Source of the DNA: Elusimicrobium minutum Pei191
GTDB taxonomy: Bacteria > Elusimicrobiota > Elusimicrobia > Elusimicrobiales > Elusimicrobiaceae
Reading direction: 5' to 3'
Assembly (NCBI RefSeq): GCF_000020145.1
Contig: NC_010644.1
Location: 496,001 to 560,000 of the forward strand
Length of the DNA: 64,000 bases
The notes beneath the pieces are model-generated. The model was not told the origin of the DNA and ran no database searches. It worked only from the letters and a program-made list of their open reading frames with translations. The position numbers and the translations under genes were made by a program. This document shows positions 18,711 through 38,020 of the stretch, piece by piece; position 1 is the first letter of the stretch, and each line of letters opens with the position of its first letter.

Positions 18711-18983
18711 ACATACCATATTATTTTAATATTTGAATGTAGTCAACATGTATATCAAAATACTATAATTGTTATTATGGTATAAAAATGTGTAATATTT
18801 ATGAATATTCTACATTGACAATCCTTAAAATGTATTTATATTATATTTATAACTTTTATTTTATACAAAATAATCATTTTTTTTCAAATAATCTGACCGT
18901 TTTTCAATGTTGTTTTATAGTTTATTGTACGCATAGATAATAATATTACATTTTTTAGGCATGTATCTTAAATGGAGGATAAA

Positions 18984-20753
18984 ATGAAGAAACGAGGATT
19001 CACCTTAATAGAAATAGCTGTAGTAGTTTTAGTAATAGCTATTTTAGCTGCGGCAGCTTTGCCGCAGTACAGAAAGTCGTTAGAACGCTCAAGAGCTGCC
19101 GAAGCTTTTGACATCCTTACAGAGATAAGGAATAAACAAGAAGCCAGGGATTTACTTGGCACGGGGACGGCCAAAGGCTATACTGTAAAGTTTAGCGATT
19201 TGGGGGAAGTAATAGCGGGTAAAAATTCCACAACAAACACATTAGACACAAGCCTGTTTACTTATACGCTTTCAAATAACCCATATCCGCAGGCATATGC
19301 CAAAAGGAAGGATATGGATTATTCGATAGTTCAGACAAAGGGGTATCAAGACAGTGCGTTATGTTGTTTGGGAAGGGATTGTAAAGTTGTAGACAGCGTT
19401 TTAAAAGGGTGTGAGAAGACAGCGTGCCTTACAACATGCGCAACGGGATATAAAAAAACGGGGTACTTTTTTTCGGAGGACGGGCCTTGCTGTGAAGCAA
19501 AAACGTCGTGTCCGACAACATGTCCTACGGGACAAAAGAGAAGTAGCGTGCAGTATACGGAAGACGGAGCGTGCTGCGTAGCCAAAACATCATGCCCGAC
19601 AACATGTCCTACAGGCCAGCAGAGGACAAGCGTACAATATAGTGAAGACGGAGCATGCTGCGTATCAAAAACGTCGTGTCCCGCAACATGTCCTGCAGGG
19701 CAAAAAAGAAGCAGCGTGCAGTATACGGAAGACGGAGCGTGCTGCGTAGCCAAAACATCATGCCCGACAACATGTCCCGCAGGTGAAGAAAGAACTTCTT
19801 CCCAGTATTATGAGGACGGAGCTTGTTGTAAAACAGCTACTGTATATACATGTTCGGGCGCAAGCAGCCAGGCTTGCGGCAACTGCGGAACGCAGACAAG
19901 AACATGTGATACTTCAACCGGCACATGGAGCGCGTGGAGTTCATGCTCGGGAGAAGGCGTTTGCAGCCCTGGTGCGACGCAAAGTTGTACAGGCGGCACG
20001 CAAACATGTTCAAGCACTTGCGCGTGGGGCAGTTGTGAAGTAGTATCAAAAAGTTGTTCGGGCGCGTCCACGCAAACTTGCGGTAAATGCGGCACGCAGA
20101 CAAGAACGTGTGATACCACAACAGGAGTATGGAGCGATTGGGGCAGTTGTTCGGGAGAAGGTGAATGTATACCCGGTGAAAAGAGAGATTACGGTTGCGG
20201 CTCTAAATCAGGAACAAACTGGGCTGTTTGCGGCTCAGACTGTAAAATGGGTGAGCCTGAAAACAAATGCTCAGCCTGTGAAGGAAAGAGCACCCAGTCT
20301 TGTACTTGCAACGGAATCCAAACACGTACATGCAATGAATCAACAGGAACATGGAGTGCGTGGGGAGCATGTGAAGGAGGACAAAACCCTTCCAATACGG
20401 CTTCCACAACAACAAAATGCTCGTTTAATAAAACTATCCGATACTCTTATGGTGATATGTACAGTAGCAGTACAGGGGTAGCTTATACTATTAATGGCAC
20501 TAAAACCAAAAGCTGGAATAAATATACTTGTCAGTGGCAGGAAAGTAAATGCAGCGGTATGATTTGGGTTTCTTTAGGCCAGCCTGCGGCCGTAGGCCAG
20601 GGCGCGCTTTGCCGAAGTACGCAGGCCTGTTCCGCTCCCGGAACGGGGTGGACTTACGTGGGCGGTTCGTGCAACGGAAGCAGTTTGTTAAGATGTTCGT
20701 CAAGCCCTAGTGATTCATGTTATTTGTATAATTGCCAAAATGTATCCCAATAA
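18984..20753 (+). CDS. Prepilin fused to Cys-rich 28-residue repeats and TSR-like domains
   Basis: About 589 residues from ATG 18984, chosen because GGAGG (about 18974-18978) sits at the right distance; the ATG at 18972 lies upstream of it. The N-terminus is MKKRG then FTLIEIAVVVLVIAILAA, a class III prepilin leader. A normal pilin head extends to about residue 140. Then come five 28-residue units (plus-strand 19413-19832), each with CP-x-TCP-x-G and YxEDGACC, that is four or five Cys per unit. Next are three thrombospondin-type-1-like segments with CGTQTRTCD...GTWSAWSSC (about 19850-20400), then a C-terminal Cys-containing domain. Disulfide-stiffened stalks on a pilin suggest a minor tip pilin or surface adhesin. 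The fusion is unusual; adhesin function is inferred. Confidence 0.82.
   Translation: MKKRGFTLIEIAVVVLVIAILAAAALPQYRKSLERSRAAEAFDILTEIRNKQEARDLLGTGTAKGYTVKFSDLGEVIAGKNSTTNTLDTSLFTYTLSNNPYPQAYAKRKDMDYSIVQTKGYQDSALCCLGRDCKVVDSVLKGCEKTACLTTCATGYKKTGYFFSEDGPCCEAKTSCPTTCPTGQKRSSVQYTEDGACCVAKTSCPTTCPTGQQRTSVQYSEDGACCVSKTSCPATCPAGQKRSSVQYTEDGACCVAKTSCPTTCPAGEERTSSQYYEDGACCKTATVYTCSGASSQACGNCGTQTRTCDTSTGTWSAWSSCSGEGVCSPGATQSCTGGTQTCSSTCAWGSCEVVSKSCSGASTQTCGKCGTQTRTCDTTTGVWSDWGSCSGEGECIPGEKRDYGCGSKSGTNWAVCGSDCKMGEPENKCSACEGKSTQSCTCNGIQTRTCNESTGTWSAWGACEGGQNPSNTASTTTKCSFNKTIRYSYGDMYSSSTGVAYTINGTKTKSWNKYTCQWQESKCSGMIWVSLGQPAAVGQGALCRSTQACSAPGTGWTYVGGSCNGSSLLRCSSSPSDSCYLYNCQNVSQ
19413..19832 (+). repeat. 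Five tandem 84-bp coding repeats (28 residues each)
   Basis: Units start at 19413, 19497, 19581, 19665 and 19749. The first is the most diverged; units starting at 19497 and 19665 are nearly identical at the DNA level, pointing to recent duplication of a two-unit block. Confidence 0.85.
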
Positions 20754-29794: not shown

Positions 29795-32700
29795 ATGAAA
29801 ATAACAGAAACTGTAACCAAAATAATAAGCGCTGTCTTAATAGCAAGCATACTTCAAAGTGTTGTGCCCGCTGAGGTTTATGCGCAGGTACGTGTTGAAA
29901 AAAAAGCTACGAACATAAGCACAAAAAATCCAATAATAAATTCCAAGAACATAAAGAACTCCGGCTACATGATAAAGAGCGAAAAAGGATTAATAGGTCG
30001 AGAGATAAGTGAGGAGTTGGGGAAGGTATGGGGGAAGAGTTTTGCTGTGGAGAGTGTGAGGGTTGAGAGGGTATATGAAGAAGAGCGTGTAAAGATAGCG
30101 ATTGAGAGCGGGAGTCGTGAGAGGAGGGTATATGAGGTAATGGGAGAGGATTATTATAAAGCGTTGGAGTATTTTGCCGAGCAGGGGGGTGTTAGGTTGG
30201 GATATGGGAACGATGTAGAAGGAGAGAGTGTAGAGGAGGGAGGTTTATTAAACAGTGCGGACAGGGTATACAGTGCGTATAAGAGGACGTTGCAGAACAG
30301 TGATTCGAGGAAGGTAGGGAAGGGAGTGATAGAGTTAAGGTATGATTTGATAAGAAAGGATAGCAGGAAGAAGTTGGAGATGGATATAGATGAAGCTACT
30401 GGAGCGATGTTAAAGGTATTGGTGGACATATTGTTGTATTCGAAGAGGGGAATACAGGAAAGGTACGCGCCGTTGGTGACGGAGGTATTGGTAGGGATGA
30501 GGCGATTAGATTTAGGGGGAAAGACAGCGGGCAGTATGAGGGCATATTATAAAGAGGTATTGGATGTAAAGAAGAGTAAGGGAGTTTGTGAGAGCAGGAT
30601 TACGGACGGGTATGTGAGGGGTTTGGGGGAGGCGCAGAAGAGTTGTATAGATATAACGAGTGCGATGACGGGGCTTGGGTTGATAGGAGGAGGGGAGGAG
30701 GAGATATACAAATTTGGGAAGGAGTATTGGAGTGAGGGGCGGGTATCGTCTGTAATAATGAGCAGGGCGGCGCACGGGTTGATATTAAGCGGAGAAAAGG
30801 GGATTGTATTGTTAGGAGAATTGATAAGGGAAACGGTAAGGAGCGGGTATCCTAGGAACGCGGTGAAGTGGGCGTGGGACAAATTTGGGGCTGTATTTAC
30901 GCCGTCGGAGTATGTTGACGGGTATTATAATCATGTGAGTAAAAAGGCGTTGTATTTGAATGAAGTGACGAGGCGGTTTGAGTATATAGATGAGGAGAAG
31001 GCAAGGGAGTGGGGTTTTAGTGTTAGAGATATAAAGATGTGTCAGGAGGTAGAGGTAAAGAGGGGAAGTGATGCGTGTTTAATGATGCCAATGAGGAATG
31101 TATTTACGGATATAGGGGAGGATTTGGCGTATTTAGGGGGAGCTGGAGGAAAGCGTGAGATAAGGAAATTATTAAGAGAAGAGCGGAATTTGCATTGGCC
31201 GTTTATAGTTGGAGTATTGGGTAGTGGGGCGTATGAAGGGGATGGAGGGGCTAACGAGATAAGGAAGGTGATAGCGGGTACGACGTATATGGATGTGACG
31301 TCTGGAACGGACAGGAAGATAAAGGAAGCGGTGGGATTGAAGATAGGAGGGTTTAACGCTGACCAGTTAAAGAGGGCGAGGGAGTATTATAATGAGAAGA
31401 GATTAGCGTATGTATTAGATATAGTTGTGATGATAGCGTTGATAGGAAACCTGGCGAAGAGTATGAGCACGTTTAGGGTACCTAGGAGCGTAGAGAACTG
31501 TTGGAGGAGTTTGAGGGGGGCAGGGAATGCTGGGAAGGAAGTTTCGGTAAGAGGGGTAAGGAGTGTAAAGGTAGCGGAGCAGGCGGCGGCGATGGAGCGT
31601 GTAAATGCGGTAAAGAAGGTTAGCGGTGGGGTAAAGGGGGGAGTGATAGAATTTGGTTTAGAGGGTGTGGGAGGAGAGTTAAAGGTAGTGAAGGGTCGGA
31701 TAGGAGGGAAGTTAAAGATAAGTCCGGTGTTAGAGGGAACGTTGAAGGTAGAGACGAAGGTAAAGGATTTGGGCTTAAGCGTAGGCGGGTCTGGAGGGGG
31801 AGGCACGTTTAGCGCGAGGCCTGTTGTGGGGAAAGGAATAATAGAGGGAGGGAAGGGAATAAGTTTGGAGAGTAAAGTTACCGGTGCGTTTAGAGTTATG
31901 GAGGGGAATAAAGTAGCGGGTGGAGTGGTGGAGGGTGAAAAGGTTATTGTTGCTGCGAGAGGAACGGGAAGTGGGGTTGGCAGGATTGGCAGAGTGATGG
32001 GTAGGGCGAAGAATAGTTTTGTACATGCGAAGAACAAGGCTGTGGTATACAGTATGATGGTAATGTTGCCAATGGGGAGCATGACGGAGGCTGGAAGCGC
32101 GGTAAAGAATATAAGTAATGTAGGGAAGCAGATAAGCGTGATGGCGGAAGCAGGGGGGGTAGGAGTAAGGACGATAGAGGGTGGAAAGTTAATAAGGGGA
32201 GTAATCGCGGCTGGCGAGGTAAGCAAAGCAATGAGGAGCGCGGAGGTTGTATCGGGAGTAAGTAAGGGATTGGATAGAGCGGGGAGAATAGGTAAGGCGT
32301 CGAAGTTGGGAGGGATTGGAGCAAAGCGAGTAGGTGATACGGCAAAGTTATTTGGGATAGGAAGTATAATAGGAAGGCCGGCAGAGGCGGAGGGAGGCAG
32401 CGGGCCGTCGTCTGGAACATTGGAGCGGGTATACGCGCAGTTGGTGGGGGTAAGAGCGCCAGTAAGTAAAGAGGTAAGCACGAAGGAGTTTATCAAGCAA
32501 GAGTTGATAAACATGAGCGGGATAGGTTTTGTAGCGATGCTTGCGGAAGAGTTAAAGATAGGAAGGGAGATAAGAAGGGAGTATGGGAAAGAAGGGATAA
32601 CGGCGGAGAGCATGAAGAAGCAGTGGGCTGCTGTGGAGATGACGAGGGCAGAGGCGGTGTTGGATAGAGCGGTGGAAGAAGGGAGAGAGCTGACGGATTT

Positions 32701-35700
32701 AGAGAACAGCGCGGTAGCCGGGTATATAAGTAATATACATGTAAACAACCAGGGTTATGTAGAAGGCGAAAAAGGGGAATGGAGTTTGTCAAATACGCCG
32801 ATAGCGAAGGCTGCGGATGATTATATAAAAAATAAATATGGGTATGAATATAAGCAAGACGTTGAGAGCTATAAGAGGGTAAACGGGGAAGGAAAAGAAG
32901 AGACGGTAAGCAGGATAATAAACAAAAGAGTAGAAAAAATAACCCCCGCGCAAGAAGCCTTAGAAGGAACAGCGGCGCATCATGTAACCGGGCAGGTATA
33001 CTCCTCAGCAAGACCTGTGGTAACAGGAGTCTTAGAACATACCTTAGGATCAGCAAGCGAGGCAGCGGTAAACGCTAAAGCAAGCGCGGCGGAATTTGGG
33101 ATGCAGGTAAGGCCTATAGTGAAAAACCAGTCTGTTAGTACGATAGCTGCCAGCTTTTTTGGGGTATTGCCCGAGAAATTAAAAGCCGTATTAACCAACA
33201 CTTTAACATCTGATGAAGCCGAATCATTACAGAACGCGTTAGACTCCGCTTACAATAAAGCCATTTTGGAATTTATTGTAAAACATGGGGACAGCGCCGC
33301 CGCGAAAGTCGGTGATAAAACGGTAAGAACTTACCCCGCGTTTCAAATTATATTAGAAAATAATATAAATAACGCTTTTAAAACAGTTAATATAAACAGG
33401 ACTTCGCTTGAGGCTATAAGGGCGGAGCTTGGGTCTGTTATATTTATAAACGATGCTGAGTTAGCGGCATTAGATAAAGCAGACGTTTTTGACTCTGAAC
33501 AAAGAAAAATAAACACGCAAGCCGCGCAAAAAGCTTTTGAGCAAAAACAGGCGGATGGCAGCGTTGTAAATATTACGGAAGACGGTTTTGAAATATTAAA
33601 TCCTGCCACAGATAAAGTGGAATATACAAAAGGGTTTTTAGGAATCGGCAAAAAGCCTAAGATTTCTGTTAACAGTTCAACTAAAGATAATCAACCTTTA
33701 AGCATAGAAAATAAAATAGAACAAAAATACCAGGTAAACGCGGCTATAGAAAAACCTGACGGCAGTATTAAAATTTCGGAGCTGCATAGTATTAAGATAA
33801 AAGTTATCGCGTCGGTAAAAGATATTATTAAATTTAAGCAGCATATTTACGGAAATTATGTTCCTTTTATTAATAATGAAGGTAACCTGATTTTTTTAAA
33901 TACCAAAACAGGTAAAAAAGACAGTTCTATTTCTGTTCACGCTACAAACGGAGTTTCTTTTCAATCCATTGCCGAGAAAATAGAAAACGGCGTGGCGTCA
34001 ACCTCTTTACCTGTGGTGGAAACTTCCATGAGGCATTCCAACTCCTGGACGCTGGCTCTTTATTTAACCTCTATAATTAATGGTTTTATAATTTTGTTCA
34101 GCGGTTCAAACGTTATACAGTTTGCCGATAAAATGGATTTATCTAATACGCAGCAGGCTCTTTTTAGCAGCGTTACGTTTATACTTGCCATACCGGTGCC
34201 TTATTTAGCTACAATCGCTAAAGCAAAATTAGGCAAAGCAAAAACATTAAAATTAGGCGTTTCGGCCGTCTTACTTGGCGGCGTTATGAGCGCGGCTTTC
34301 GGGCTTGGGCATTTTAGCGTTTGGGAAAATGTGGGTTTGCAATACGCGGGGCTTCTTGCTTCGGCTTTCATTACAGGTATAGGAGTGTTTACAACAACGG
34401 TAACTACTTCGCCGATAATGTCTAACATAACAGGCGATCCTGATTTGAGAATGAAAAAAACAGCCAGACTGCAAATGCTTATGTCTTTAGGGGTTATGTT
34501 GGCTACTACATCCGCATGGATGCTTAGCAAAGCGGGCATTGACCCTACTTCGGCTATACCGTTGCTTGCTATCGGTATGTCAGGCGCTACTCTTGCGGCT
34601 TTACATAAGACAAATATTCCCAACTTTAAATATAATGGTTTTACTAAAAACGCCGAAGAAACGGTTGTTAAAGAAAAAGTATCTTTCTCGGAAAAGAAGA
34701 TTAAAGCCGCCACCGCTTTTAAAAATTTTGTAAACGCTCATAAAACAGCTTTAGGTAATTTTACGCATGGTAATTTTAAACAAGGCGCAGACTCTTTAAA
34801 ATACGGTTGGAATATTATCTTTAACGATGGTGAAGCGTGGAAGCTTATTCCCAGTGCGTTTTTATTAAACGGCGCGGAAGTTGGATTTATGGTAAGTATG
34901 CCTATTATGATTTTAGCTATAATGCCCGGCGCTAATGAACTTGTAAGCGGACTTGCGTTTTTATATTCCTCTGCTCCTTTTATATTGGGAAGACTTACTG
35001 CCAAAACCTTAATTAATAAATTTGGCATGTTTGGCAGTAAAATGCTTGCCACAGGCTTAACTGTTGTTGGCGTTACGTCCGCAATAGGAATGGGAATGAG
35101 CGCCGGCGTAGTGCCGCTTGTCGCGGCTATAGGTGTTGGGGAATACGGCATATCAAGCTTTTTTGCTTTATTTAATATAGGCCTTGCCGCTACCCCTAAA
35201 AGAGAGGCTAAACTTGTTCATTGGATATCAATTTCAACTTTAGGCTGCGCTATTTTCCCGGCTATGTTTGCCGCTATGGCTGACACCGCTAAAATAAGGT
35301 ATATGGCACAAGGGTTAAGCGAACAACTTGCCAATGTTGAAGCTACCACAACCTTTTATCTTATGGCTCCTTTAGCGTTAATAGGCGTGTCGTTTGCTCT
35401 TATGGCGGCCCAAAAAGGCGCGGCAAAAGAATTGATAAACGGTTTTGTGAAAATAGCCAAAAATTTACATGCAGCCCTTTTTGCCACTACGCCCAAAGCA
35501 TTTGCCAGTGAGAAAGAAAGAACGCAACATGAATCATCAAGAGTAAAATTTTTCTCAAAAAATAAAAAAGACGATACAAGCAAAGGTTCCGGTACTCTTA
35601 ATTTCGGCGTTAACCCCACGGAACTTGCTAAAGGAATTAAAAAAATATTTACGGTTAATTCCCAGGTTGTGGAAGGAAACGGAAAAGTTATAATACAAGA

Positions 35701-38020
35701 AAGAAATTTTACACTTGACCTGCCTATACAAGAGGGGGAAGAATTCAGCTATAAAAATTACCAGGAAAGGGTTGCCGTACCTTTTACAATATCACACGCT
35801 AATGAAAGCGATGTTATTAATTTTTATAAATTTCTCATGAATCATAAAGCGTATGTAACTAAAGACGGTGAAATAGCTTATGAAAACAGAGTTTCAAAAA
35901 CACTTAAATCCCATTATGTATTAAATAGCGGAAAACCTTTAAACATAATGCAAAAAATACAAGATATTAAAGAAGGCAAAAATATTACTCCTATAAATAT
36001 TGATAAAATAAATCCTTCTTCCCAATTCTTAAGTCCTTTATATTTAACATCCGCGCTTATGGCTATGGAGTTTGCGGTTTCGCCTTTGATTACCAACATA
36101 CAGGAAACCTTAGGATACAGCGATGGTAAAATAACTGTTTTAGTAGCCACTACAACGTTGGCCGCTATTTTCTTGCCCTTCTTTTCTTCTCCGTTCGCGG
36201 GTAAATTTGGCAGGAAGACAGCTCTTAACGTGGGGCTTTCCGGTATTTTGATAGGGTCTTTAGCGTCATACCTTTTTGGTTTTGGGAATATAGCTACGCC
36301 TTCGGTATTCGGCCCCGCTTTACAGTTTGCGGGCATTCTTCTTTCAATTTTTGCTATAGGCGTTGGTAAGGATTTTATTAATAATTCGGCCGCGCCCATG
36401 ATGTCTTCCATTACCACGGAAGAAAGAGTAAGGACAAGAAAAAGTATTAATATACAGAAAAGCATGGGGGTAGGTATTACCGTAATGTACGCGGCTCCTA
36501 TACTTTTTGCACAATATTTTGGCGACGCGACAGGCTCAATACCTTTTATAGGAGTGCCGGCGGCTTTGGCTGGATTAATTTGGCTTAACCTTTCCGGTAT
36601 ACCTAACACGAAAAGTCAGCTTGATACGGAGAAAAAAGTTTCTTTAAAGCAGGAACTTGCGGCAAAATGGAATTATTTTAAAAACGATATCGCTTCAAGA
36701 AAAATAGTAGGCGGGCTTACTCTTTTAAACATGGTTGAGGCAGGCTCGGCTATAGTAGGTCCTCTTATATTCGGCCGATTGTATTCCGAAACTACCGCTC
36801 AAATGTTTGCTGTGCTTACATATCCGTTGCCATTTTTAGCGGGCAGATTTTTGGCCGACAAAATAATAAACCGCTTTGGCGTTGCCGGGGCAACCGGTTT
36901 TGGTTTGGTATCCATTACGGCGGGAAGCGTAGCCAGCATTGCCGTAACCCACGCGGCGCCTTTACTGCTTGTAGCCAGTTTTGCGGTAGTTGAATTTGGT
37001 ATATCTTTGGTTTTTACCGTAACTTACGGCGCTTTATCAAAAAACAGAGAACGGGAAATAATGACGCTGCCTTTTGTAATAGTTTCCGTGGCGGGTTTTA
37101 GCGTAGGCTCTATTTTATGGGGCGGCGTTTCAGACTTTACAAAATACGCGGCGGAAAGTATTTTCGCTTTATCCCCGACGGATGCTTTAAATTTAGGTTC
37201 TTTTGTTGGATTTATACTTTTGCCGCCGGTATTAATGTTACCTGTTTTTAAACTTTTTAACCGAAAAGGGATGTTTAAGAAAAATGAGAAATCCGTCCCT
37301 ATACAAGCCGCGGCATCTTTGCCCGAGGTAGAACAAAAAGCGGCACCATCGCTTTCCTTTTTTGGCAAAATTTTTGCCGCAATAAAGAAATTCTTTTCAC
37401 CTAAAGACATTATTGATAACAGTTCTTTTTCAATAGGTTTAACAAACAACAAAAAAGAACTTTTAGAAGAACTTAAAAGCTTTTACAATGTTAAGGAAGA
37501 GGAAGATGTTTGGCAAAATATAAATAATGATTTCTTTATCCAGTTTCCCCAATATAATTCGGACAAATATATTTTTAGAGGGCTATTTTTTGAAGACAAA
37601 AAATATTTTTCCGAAATTAAGGAAAATGGTATGGATATCAATTATGTGCGCCCTAAAACATACCCTGTTTCTGTAGATATGATGCATATGCATCGAGGAG
37701 AAGAAACTTCCGGCATGTGTTTCGGTGAAGAACCTTCCGGCGCGGCGTCTTACGCTTTTGGCGCTAATATGTGGAAACGCGGCGGCAAGGGGTATGTGGC
37801 GATGATAGTTGTTAAAAAACCCCAAGATATAGTAAATTCCGGCGGAACGCTGCTTTCAAGAAGAAGTATCGGAGCCGAGGAAATTGAAGAAGTTTTAATT
37901 TTTGATATTAAAAATAAAAAATGGGTTCCAGTCGAATCGTTAACCGAAATCGGAGAGCCGCTTTCTTTTGCGCGCCAAGAAAATATTTTCGGTTTTGCTT
38001 TAGAATATTTGACAGTTTAA
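29795..38020 (+). CDS. Giant exported protein with duplicated soluble-MFS units
   Basis: 2741 residues. A signal peptide (IISAVLIASILQSVVPAEVYAQ) is followed by a helical region (about 70-540), a hydrophobic segment (LAYVLDIVVMIALIGNLAKS, about 535-555) and a Gly/Val/Lys-rich low-complexity region (580-880). A helical stretch to about 1055 and a soluble domain (1100-1400) come next. A 12-helix MFS transporter domain follows (about 1414-1885), then a second soluble domain (1920-2060) resembling the first, a second MFS domain (about 2074-2490, with FAGKFGRKTALNVG at the conserved loop) and a C-terminal globular domain (2545-2741). The C-terminal domain has Arg2595 in YIFRGLFFED and a late GAEEIEEVLIFD, which loosely recalls the R-S-E pattern of ADP-ribosyltransferases; I hold that weakly. 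Residues 68-1049 use strongly purine-biased codons unlike the rest. I know of no characterised homologue with this order. Confidence 0.75.
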   Translation: MKITETVTKIISAVLIASILQSVVPAEVYAQVRVEKKATNISTKNPIINSKNIKNSGYMIKSEKGLIGREISEELGKVWGKSFAVESVRVERVYEEERVKIAIESGSRERRVYEVMGEDYYKALEYFAEQGGVRLGYGNDVEGESVEEGGLLNSADRVYSAYKRTLQNSDSRKVGKGVIELRYDLIRKDSRKKLEMDIDEATGAMLKVLVDILLYSKRGIQERYAPLVTEVLVGMRRLDLGGKTAGSMRAYYKEVLDVKKSKGVCESRITDGYVRGLGEAQKSCIDITSAMTGLGLIGGGEEEIYKFGKEYWSEGRVSSVIMSRAAHGLILSGEKGIVLLGELIRETVRSGYPRNAVKWAWDKFGAVFTPSEYVDGYYNHVSKKALYLNEVTRRFEYIDEEKAREWGFSVRDIKMCQEVEVKRGSDACLMMPMRNVFTDIGEDLAYLGGAGGKREIRKLLREERNLHWPFIVGVLGSGAYEGDGGANEIRKVIAGTTYMDVTSGTDRKIKEAVGLKIGGFNADQLKRAREYYNEKRLAYVLDIVVMIALIGNLAKSMSTFRVPRSVENCWRSLRGAGNAGKEVSVRGVRSVKVAEQAAAMERVNAVKKVSGGVKGGVIEFGLEGVGGELKVVKGRIGGKLKISPVLEGTLKVETKVKDLGLSVGGSGGGGTFSARPVVGKGIIEGGKGISLESKVTGAFRVMEGNKVAGGVVEGEKVIVAARGTGSGVGRIGRVMGRAKNSFVHAKNKAVVYSMMVMLPMGSMTEAGSAVKNISNVGKQISVMAEAGGVGVRTIEGGKLIRGVIAAGEVSKAMRSAEVVSGVSKGLDRAGRIGKASKLGGIGAKRVGDTAKLFGIGSIIGRPAEAEGGSGPSSGTLERVYAQLVGVRAPVSKEVSTKEFIKQELINMSGIGFVAMLAEELKIGREIRREYGKEGITAESMKKQWAAVEMTRAEAVLDRAVEEGRELTDLENSAVAGYISNIHVNNQGYVEGEKGEWSLSNTPIAKAADDYIKNKYGYEYKQDVESYKRVNGEGKEETVSRIINKRVEKITPAQEALEGTAAHHVTGQVYSSARPVVTGVLEHTLGSASEAAVNAKASAAEFGMQVRPIVKNQSVSTIAASFFGVLPEKLKAVLTNTLTSDEAESLQNALDSAYNKAILEFIVKHGDSAAAKVGDKTVRTYPAFQIILENNINNAFKTVNINRTSLEAIRAELGSVIFINDAELAALDKADVFDSEQRKINTQAAQKAFEQKQADGSVVNITEDGFEILNPATDKVEYTKGFLGIGKKPKISVNSSTKDNQPLSIENKIEQKYQVNAAIEKPDGSIKISELHSIKIKVIASVKDIIKFKQHIYGNYVPFINNEGNLIFLNTKTGKKDSSISVHATNGVSFQSIAEKIENGVASTSLPVVETSMRHSNSWTLALYLTSIINGFIILFSGSNVIQFADKMDLSNTQQALFSSVTFILAIPVPYLATIAKAKLGKAKTLKLGVSAVLLGGVMSAAFGLGHFSVWENVGLQYAGLLASAFITGIGVFTTTVTTSPIMSNITGDPDLRMKKTARLQMLMSLGVMLATTSAWMLSKAGIDPTSAIPLLAIGMSGATLAALHKTNIPNFKYNGFTKNAEETVVKEKVSFSEKKIKAATAFKNFVNAHKTALGNFTHGNFKQGADSLKYGWNIIFNDGEAWKLIPSAFLLNGAEVGFMVSMPIMILAIMPGANELVSGLAFLYSSAPFILGRLTAKTLINKFGMFGSKMLATGLTVVGVTSAIGMGMSAGVVPLVAAIGVGEYGISSFFALFNIGLAATPKREAKLVHWISISTLGCAIFPAMFAAMADTAKIRYMAQGLSEQLANVEATTTFYLMAPLALIGVSFALMAAQKGAAKELINGFVKIAKNLHAALFATTPKAFASEKERTQHESSRVKFFSKNKKDDTSKGSGTLNFGVNPTELAKGIKKIFTVNSQVVEGNGKVIIQERNFTLDLPIQEGEEFSYKNYQERVAVPFTISHANESDVINFYKFLMNHKAYVTKDGEIAYENRVSKTLKSHYVLNSGKPLNIMQKIQDIKEGKNITPINIDKINPSSQFLSPLYLTSALMAMEFAVSPLITNIQETLGYSDGKITVLVATTTLAAIFLPFFSSPFAGKFGRKTALNVGLSGILIGSLASYLFGFGNIATPSVFGPALQFAGILLSIFAIGVGKDFINNSAAPMMSSITTEERVRTRKSINIQKSMGVGITVMYAAPILFAQYFGDATGSIPFIGVPAALAGLIWLNLSGIPNTKSQLDTEKKVSLKQELAAKWNYFKNDIASRKIVGGLTLLNMVEAGSAIVGPLIFGRLYSETTAQMFAVLTYPLPFLAGRFLADKIINRFGVAGATGFGLVSITAGSVASIAVTHAAPLLLVASFAVVEFGISLVFTVTYGALSKNREREIMTLPFVIVSVAGFSVGSILWGGVSDFTKYAAESIFALSPTDALNLGSFVGFILLPPVLMLPVFKLFNRKGMFKKNEKSVPIQAAASLPEVEQKAAPSLSFFGKIFAAIKKFFSPKDIIDNSSFSIGLTNNKKELLEELKSFYNVKEEEDVWQNINNDFFIQFPQYNSDKYIFRGLFFEDKKYFSEIKENGMDINYVRPKTYPVSVDMMHMHRGEETSGMCFGEEPSGAASYAFGANMWKRGGKGYVAMIVVKKPQDIVNSGGTLLSRRSIGAEEIEEVLIFDIKNKKWVPVESLTEIGEPLSFARQENIFGFALEYLTV
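29996..32940 (+). other. Purine-rich segment of atypical codon use inside the giant gene
   Basis: On the plus strand this stretch is dominated by G and A, with very few C residues. Arginine is written mostly AGG/AGA, glycine GGG/GGA, valine GTA/GTG and leucine TTG/TTA. Before 29996 and after about 32940 the gene returns to the usage of its neighbours. The reverse strand therefore lacks stops over long distances and shows long but false open frames. Confidence 0.75.

Follow-up and report, generated by a model that had tools for sequence, protein, structure and literature searches.

The window analysed here, 64,000 nucleotides long, covers positions 496001-560000 of the single-contig genome of Elusimicrobium minutum Pei191 (1,643,562 bases) and contains a giant open reading frame (ORF), gene A, most of whose N-terminal part is encoded by DNA that occurs three times in the genome. 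This stretch of 2,994 bp, the core (window 29983-32976), is found in gene A and in two further giant genes, B and C, without a single mismatch or gap, on the plus strand and in frame in all three, and in each gene it is joined to a different tail. Ends of shared cores recur in related genomes. We consider it probable, with some reserve, that these genes belong to a polymorphic family of giant envelope proteins in which recombination within the genome homogenises a shared core that is combined with diverse tails.

A core common to three genes and its relatives

Genes B and C were recovered by a protein search of the genome as two further giant ORFs sharing their first ~1100 residues with gene A (Table 1). 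DNA identity of gene A with the other copies begins only downstream of its signal peptide region, the C-terminal end of which reads ...VPAEVYAQ, and the 5' ends of the three genes encode different signal peptides, of which those of A and C are clearly related yet diverged. Downstream of the core, the three genes are unrelated or remotely related: the tail of A contains two major facilitator superfamily (MFS) units, that of B a coiled-coil-like stretch with a weak MFS match, and that of C has Trypsin_2 domains (2.5e-15) in addition to weak MFS-like regions. The identity between A and B is 101 bp longer (3,095 bp) than the tract common with C and ends abruptly, which fits the expectation of separate conversion tracts. 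Copies B and C lie ~21 kb apart as direct repeats with rpsB and tsf in between, so that deletion by crossover would be costly, while conversion without crossover would survive.

The original prediction, made from the letters of gene A, had described an exported N-terminal part of ~1000 residues. Such a part exists, but it is not private to gene A; it is the core, whose copies in the three genes are identical and which has homologues across the family, and the prediction had not seen that residues ~64-1060 are encoded by a threefold repeat. The sole strong hydrophobic segment of the core, at residues ~537-555, keeps its position in homologues according to hydropathy scans, and its conservation in the family suggests that export is confined to the first ~500 residues of the core. 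The structure model of the core is all-helical and of low confidence (predicted local distance difference test, pLDDT, 41).

A profile search found relatives of the core in 39 of 90 genomes of the Elusimicrobiaceae, often several in each and mostly in ORFs of ~700 to 5,500 amino acids; in this genome the same profile gave only three matches, namely copies A, B and C. In relatives, among which uncultured Elusimicrobiales and Candidatus Avelusimicrobium are named, homologous cores occupy the corresponding position of the gene, and many of these cores have an ordinary, unbiased composition. Over its first ~550 residues, the core can be aligned with proteins of other genera through the motifs LNE..RF.YIDEE, MP.GN..ED.G and DLNEGTQRR, with the hydrophobic segment near the end. 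The tails met in the family comprise single and tandem MFS regions, trypsin-like domains, a weak receiver match, TPR and ankyrin repeats.

Several loci of these relatives deserve mention in their own right. One genome (G057, L043:1111-6980) has two adjacent secreted-type ORFs, one of which appears caspase-like at its C-terminus by eye, while the second carries the core and a weak response-regulator receiver match (6.2e-4). A core gene in another (L104, G030:C16) has an open frame of more than 5,000 amino acids that continues beyond the end of the fetched stretch. Finally, the ankyrin locus of the congeneric genome G001 contains, behind the L102 gene, an ORF of 4868 amino acids with neither core nor signal peptide of its own (L117:1-14604). 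It has five Trypsin_2 stretches, a PMBR match and, by eye, a receiver-like start; its trypsin block is related to the trypsin part of gene C, and it is possibly a detached tail.

In four other genomes, belonging to three genera, the core is apparently likewise common to several genes or alleles that differ in their tails or starts, judging from contig ends or near-identical flanks. In the congener (G001, 10 contigs), the start of contig C9 and the end of contig C6 begin at the same base and have 123 bp in common, after which they run into unrelated tails at two loci; one tail is a tandem MFS beside rimP-nusA, and the other is orthologous to B (39.5%) and lies at the B locus. The far end of C9 falls inside a third gene, ~95 residues past its start and shortly behind the signal peptide. 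In a genome of another genus (G127), a core gene reaches a contig end whose last 55 bp recur where C33 starts and where C35 ends, and these two contigs carry the core frame on into different MFS-like tails. In a third genus (G030), two loci, the starts of which are 96.9% identical, connect to a single core contig via the same 141 bp. These overlaps of 55 and 141 bp look like assembler k-mers and would thus mark branch points of the assembly graph. In the last genome (G002), the genes of a pair of loci agree over 107 bp near the start (93%) and over the final 201 bp (97.5%) of the core stretch as sequenced, the interior of which is dissimilar. The readable cores of these four relatives are only distantly similar in protein to the core of this genome.

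These observations are explained most simply by an old paralogous family, in each protein of which a signal peptide would precede a helical core of ~500-1000 residues, followed by a C-terminal tail of one of several unrelated kinds. In this genome, and apparently in at least four relatives, the loci would keep their core DNA identical or almost identical, with RecA-type gene conversion as the most likely means, while the tails stay different or are exchanged. Two locus differences between this genome and G001 indicate that tails move: rimP-nusA follow gene C here but an A-type tail in G001, and the trypsin block likewise stands at another locus. The N-terminal part of the core would be periplasmic, followed by one membrane pass near residue 537, a cytoplasmic linker and MFS regions with both ends inside. 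Such a core may serve all members as the anchor or docking part for a single envelope partner that they share, with the tail doing the specific work, putatively transport or sensing for MFS tails and proteolysis for trypsin tails.

Several points weigh against this interpretation. The evidence in the four other cases comes from contig ends in metagenome assemblies, in which strain variants can also branch graphs, and the repeated cores of these relatives were not seen as separate full copies. Homogenisation is not universal, as two genomes with many paralogues (G015 and G118) have diverged, unhomogenised cores. The docking role is putative, the structure model of the core being of low confidence. 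Moreover, the identity of the cores could reflect very recent duplication instead of repeated conversion.

This last alternative, in which a recent segmental duplication spread the core once or twice to other loci and no homogenisation is ongoing, is the strongest of the rivals, although we regard it as unlikely. An identity of 100% over 3 kb requires just one recent event per copy. However, the signal peptides of A and C are homologous yet diverged, which marks the genes as older paralogues, and shared cores recur in four genomes of three genera with distant core sequences, as recurring homogenisation would give. Recent duplication would explain one genome but not the recurrence, in which the core sequences differ. 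Much less probable is an artefact of assembly or finishing that collapsed three slightly different cores to one consensus. The genome appears to be a finished one of the Sanger era, and repeats of 3 kb are hard to finish; against this, the identity of A and B runs 101 bp past the tract common with C and stops abruptly, and in relatives, which were assembled independently, the breaks fall at a core of the same kind. We find it slightly harder still to regard gene A as an ordinary transporter fusion with a large N-terminal domain and an incidental repeat: tandem or fused MFS proteins exist and single units occur here, but one and the same core precedes tails of coiled-coil-like, MFS and trypsin type. 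Least credible is an intein-like or transposon-like element inserted in frame in three genes, which the sharp in-frame borders and the composition unlike that of the flanks might favour, but which is disfavoured by the homologous cores, many of them normal and unbiased, at the same gene position in relatives and by the lack of Pfam intein or transposase matches in proteins A, B and C.

Two related candidates were rejected. No reverse transcriptase (RVT_1) was found in the genome, with positive controls, which speaks against retroelement-driven copying or a diversity-generating retroelement. Searches of viral contigs, phages and plasmids gave no match to the core, and hence no indication of an imported mobile element or of a phage or plasmid origin. 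Both results also count against the in-frame element. PADLOC gave no defence-system match.

Purine loading of the core

The core also differs in composition from its surroundings, for which the 31 other genes of the window served as the baseline. On the coding strand its base composition is A 0.31, C 0.086, G 0.395 and T 0.209, with a GC skew of up to +0.73, while none of the 31 genes exceeds a skew of 0.31. C occupies 0.04 of the fourfold sites of the core, compared with 0.21 in the rest of gene A and 0.251 in the window genes (standard deviation 0.046, minimum 0.152), and the ratio of AAG to AAA is 64/19 in the core vs 16/112 in the rest of gene A. The two-fold pyrimidine codons are little changed, so that the bias is one from pyrimidine to purine where the amino acid permits. 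This purine loading is most likely a codon-level trait of homogenised cores, and it leaves the mRNA less structured according to the predicted folding energy (-16.7 kcal/mol per 120 nt vs -27.5 for the same protein with background codons).

Comparison of two orthologues from relatives, L101 (G002) and L102 (G001), whose core regions are 57% identical, brings out the shift within a single gene. Among codons of conserved residues (L102 90-700), 41 have a fourfold C in L101, and L102 has G at 25 of them, A at 9, T at 7 and C at none; no comparable codon shift is seen in the parts downstream of the core. This change of 41/41 codons amounts to a strong local bias at codon level that can be tested directly.

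Purine-biased cores occur in all four relatives with shared cores (G001, G002, G030 and G127; fourfold C 0.04-0.13), while the several diverged cores of G015 and G118 are unbiased. Overall, cores shared between loci have 4-13% C at synonymous sites vs 20-52% in other measured cores, with the exception of L102. The latter is biased though not itself broken at a contig end, which weakens the link. The sequences are suggestive, though no proof, of an association between core sharing and purine bias across genomes. A lineage-wide system of interchangeable parts, with purine loading of the core tied to its homogenisation, is a tentative extension that we hold to be possible rather than probable. 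If it were true, core copying itself, or else selection acting on core mRNA, would write a DNA-level signature recurring in three genera, and the proteins of one cell would present one species-specific face with many functions behind it.

Other causes of the skew were considered and set aside. C-to-T deamination is at odds with a C share of two-fold pyrimidine codons of 0.28 vs 0.34 (0.50 vs 0.52 in L102) while fourfold C is nearly gone, and selection for G-quadruplexes with the finding of 0 such motifs and of 49 GGGG runs vs 63 (standard deviation 5) in own-codon shuffles. C-free 60-mers, tried as a genome-wide detector, lacked specificity.

Opposite the core, an open frame of 453 codons runs on the minus strand at 31387-32748, as it does opposite copies B and C; it is most likely a shadow of the composition rather than a gene. 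Among the ordinary genes of the window, those at 363-1322 and 18972-20753 are some of the strongest departures in composition, with A-rich fourfold sites (A 0.41 and 0.38; C 0.15 and 0.17) and skews of 0.31 and 0.15, respectively.

The transporter units and other parts of gene A

Table 1. Parts of gene A, in window coordinates, and the two other genes that carry the core, in genome coordinates.
Feature	Position	Strand	Basis or remarks
Giant ORF A	29795..38020	+	2741 aa, uninterrupted frame without frameshift; consists of signal peptide, core, linker, two MFS units and tail
Signal peptide region (MKITETVTKIISAVLIASILQSVVPAEVYAQ), private to gene A	29795..29887	+	sequence inspection, hydropathy peak at residue 10
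A/B-identical stretch, 3,095 bp	29927..33021	+	blastn 100.000%, 0 mismatches, 0 gaps; ends at SSARPVV codons
Core identical in A, B and C, 2,994 bp = 998 codons (~64-1060)	29983..32976	+	blastn, in frame in all
Hydrophobic segment, residues ~537-555	31403..31459	+	hydropathy scans and conserved hydrophobic block in alignments; likely membrane anchor
Unit 1: soluble segment + MFS1	33662..35446	+	12 hydrophobic peaks, residues 1419-1872
Unit 2: soluble segment + MFS2	35480..37291	+	12 peaks, residues 2084-2485
C-terminal tail of gene A, ~240 aa	37292..38017	+	without family match
Gene B, 2530 aa	G000:C1:699379-706971	+	carries core
Gene C, 3965 aa	727765-739662	+	carries core

The original prediction had read gene A as one ORF encoding, behind a signal peptide, a unit of soluble domain and 12-helix MFS region that was duplicated within the gene, and this part of it holds. 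The frame is open throughout (Table 1), and a hydropathy scan, used here in place of a trained topology predictor, gives 12 + 12 peaks in the MFS regions (residues 1419-1856 and 2084-2469) in addition to those at residue 10 and ~537. Pfam MFS_1 matches the protein in three stretches (E 8.5e-21; 74.7 bits vs a gathering cut-off of 33.4), the best of which, residues 2087-2440, lies in unit 2. Units 1 (1290-1895) and 2 (1896-2500) are 24% identical (blastp E 7e-31), and their hhalign alignment (E 1.6e-39, 521 columns) extends into the soluble part ahead of each MFS. Because the units align and each has 12 peaks, the internal duplication is real. It is also older than the species, since the congener G001 carries the same tandem arrangement with 30% identity to A; for unit 1, the congener homologue reaches 40% over residues 1313-1621.

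Homologues with a single unit, by which the duplication was to be checked, exist in genus g6 as proteins of ~870-950 amino acids composed of a signal peptide, a soluble part and one MFS region, and relatives of unit 2 are present in many genomes of that genus. In most of the loci examined (L045-L055), the single-unit gene lies near a cluster named by eye as MacA/MacB/outer-membrane-channel-like, a neighbourhood that hints at a role with an export pump.

The C-terminal tail of gene A had no match in Pfam and no significant one in the PDB, and its structure model is poor (pLDDT 44). By eye it shows an R / S-T-S / E-x-E-like ADP-ribosyltransferase pattern (37292-38017), for which family and structure searches gave no support.

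Likeness to known systems

Tandem and fused MFS proteins are exemplified by the NarK1-NarK2 fusion and LplT-Aas. Gene A resembles the NarK1-NarK2 type in having two 12-helix MFS regions per chain, but differs in its N-terminal part of ~1400 residues (signal peptide and core) and in the soluble domain before each MFS. That no protein of this build had been described, as the original prediction stated, is consistent with the lack of any NCBIfam match for the gene A protein and with the recognition by Pfam of its MFS part only. The prediction also offered, as a conjecture, a role as a transporter-coupled surface machine or sensor.

In size, the family recalls the giant extracellular proteins of Apilactobacillus (PMC12863079) and the huge proteins, of more than 5000 amino acids and poorly characterised, in which Elusimicrobiota are enriched (PMC11573180). 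In the available portions of these two papers, the likeness lies in very large proteins encoded by small host-associated genomes, and those portions describe neither a core identical between loci nor MFS tails. The core and tail system may explain part of the phylum's richness in huge proteins of unknown role.

The closest parallel is with the Rhs genes of Enterobacteriaceae, which are large and contain a conserved, compositionally distinct core that is nearly identical between some loci of one genome; this core joins non-homologous C-terminal tips of more ordinary composition, and core and tip evolve separately (PMC2935791). Genes A, B and C share with them the near-identical core at several loci and the non-homologous tails. 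However, Pfam found no RHS/YD repeats in proteins A, B and C or in the core alone, which has no significant Pfam match; as the repeats that define Rhs are absent, we do not file the family as Rhs despite the same layout. Other features also differ. The composition of the core departs mainly by strand asymmetry, that is, purine loading, and less by G+C content. In place of small tips, the tails here reach ~2900 amino acids and are transporters or proteases, and a signal peptide forms the N-terminus. An array of dissociated tips was not demonstrated downstream. In summary, the family looks like a protein system of interchangeable parts with the layout of E. coli Rhs but unrelated to it, so that an architecture of near-identical core and variable tip, known mainly from Rhs-type proteins, is met in an unrelated family of a poorly known phylum, with transporter and protease tails.
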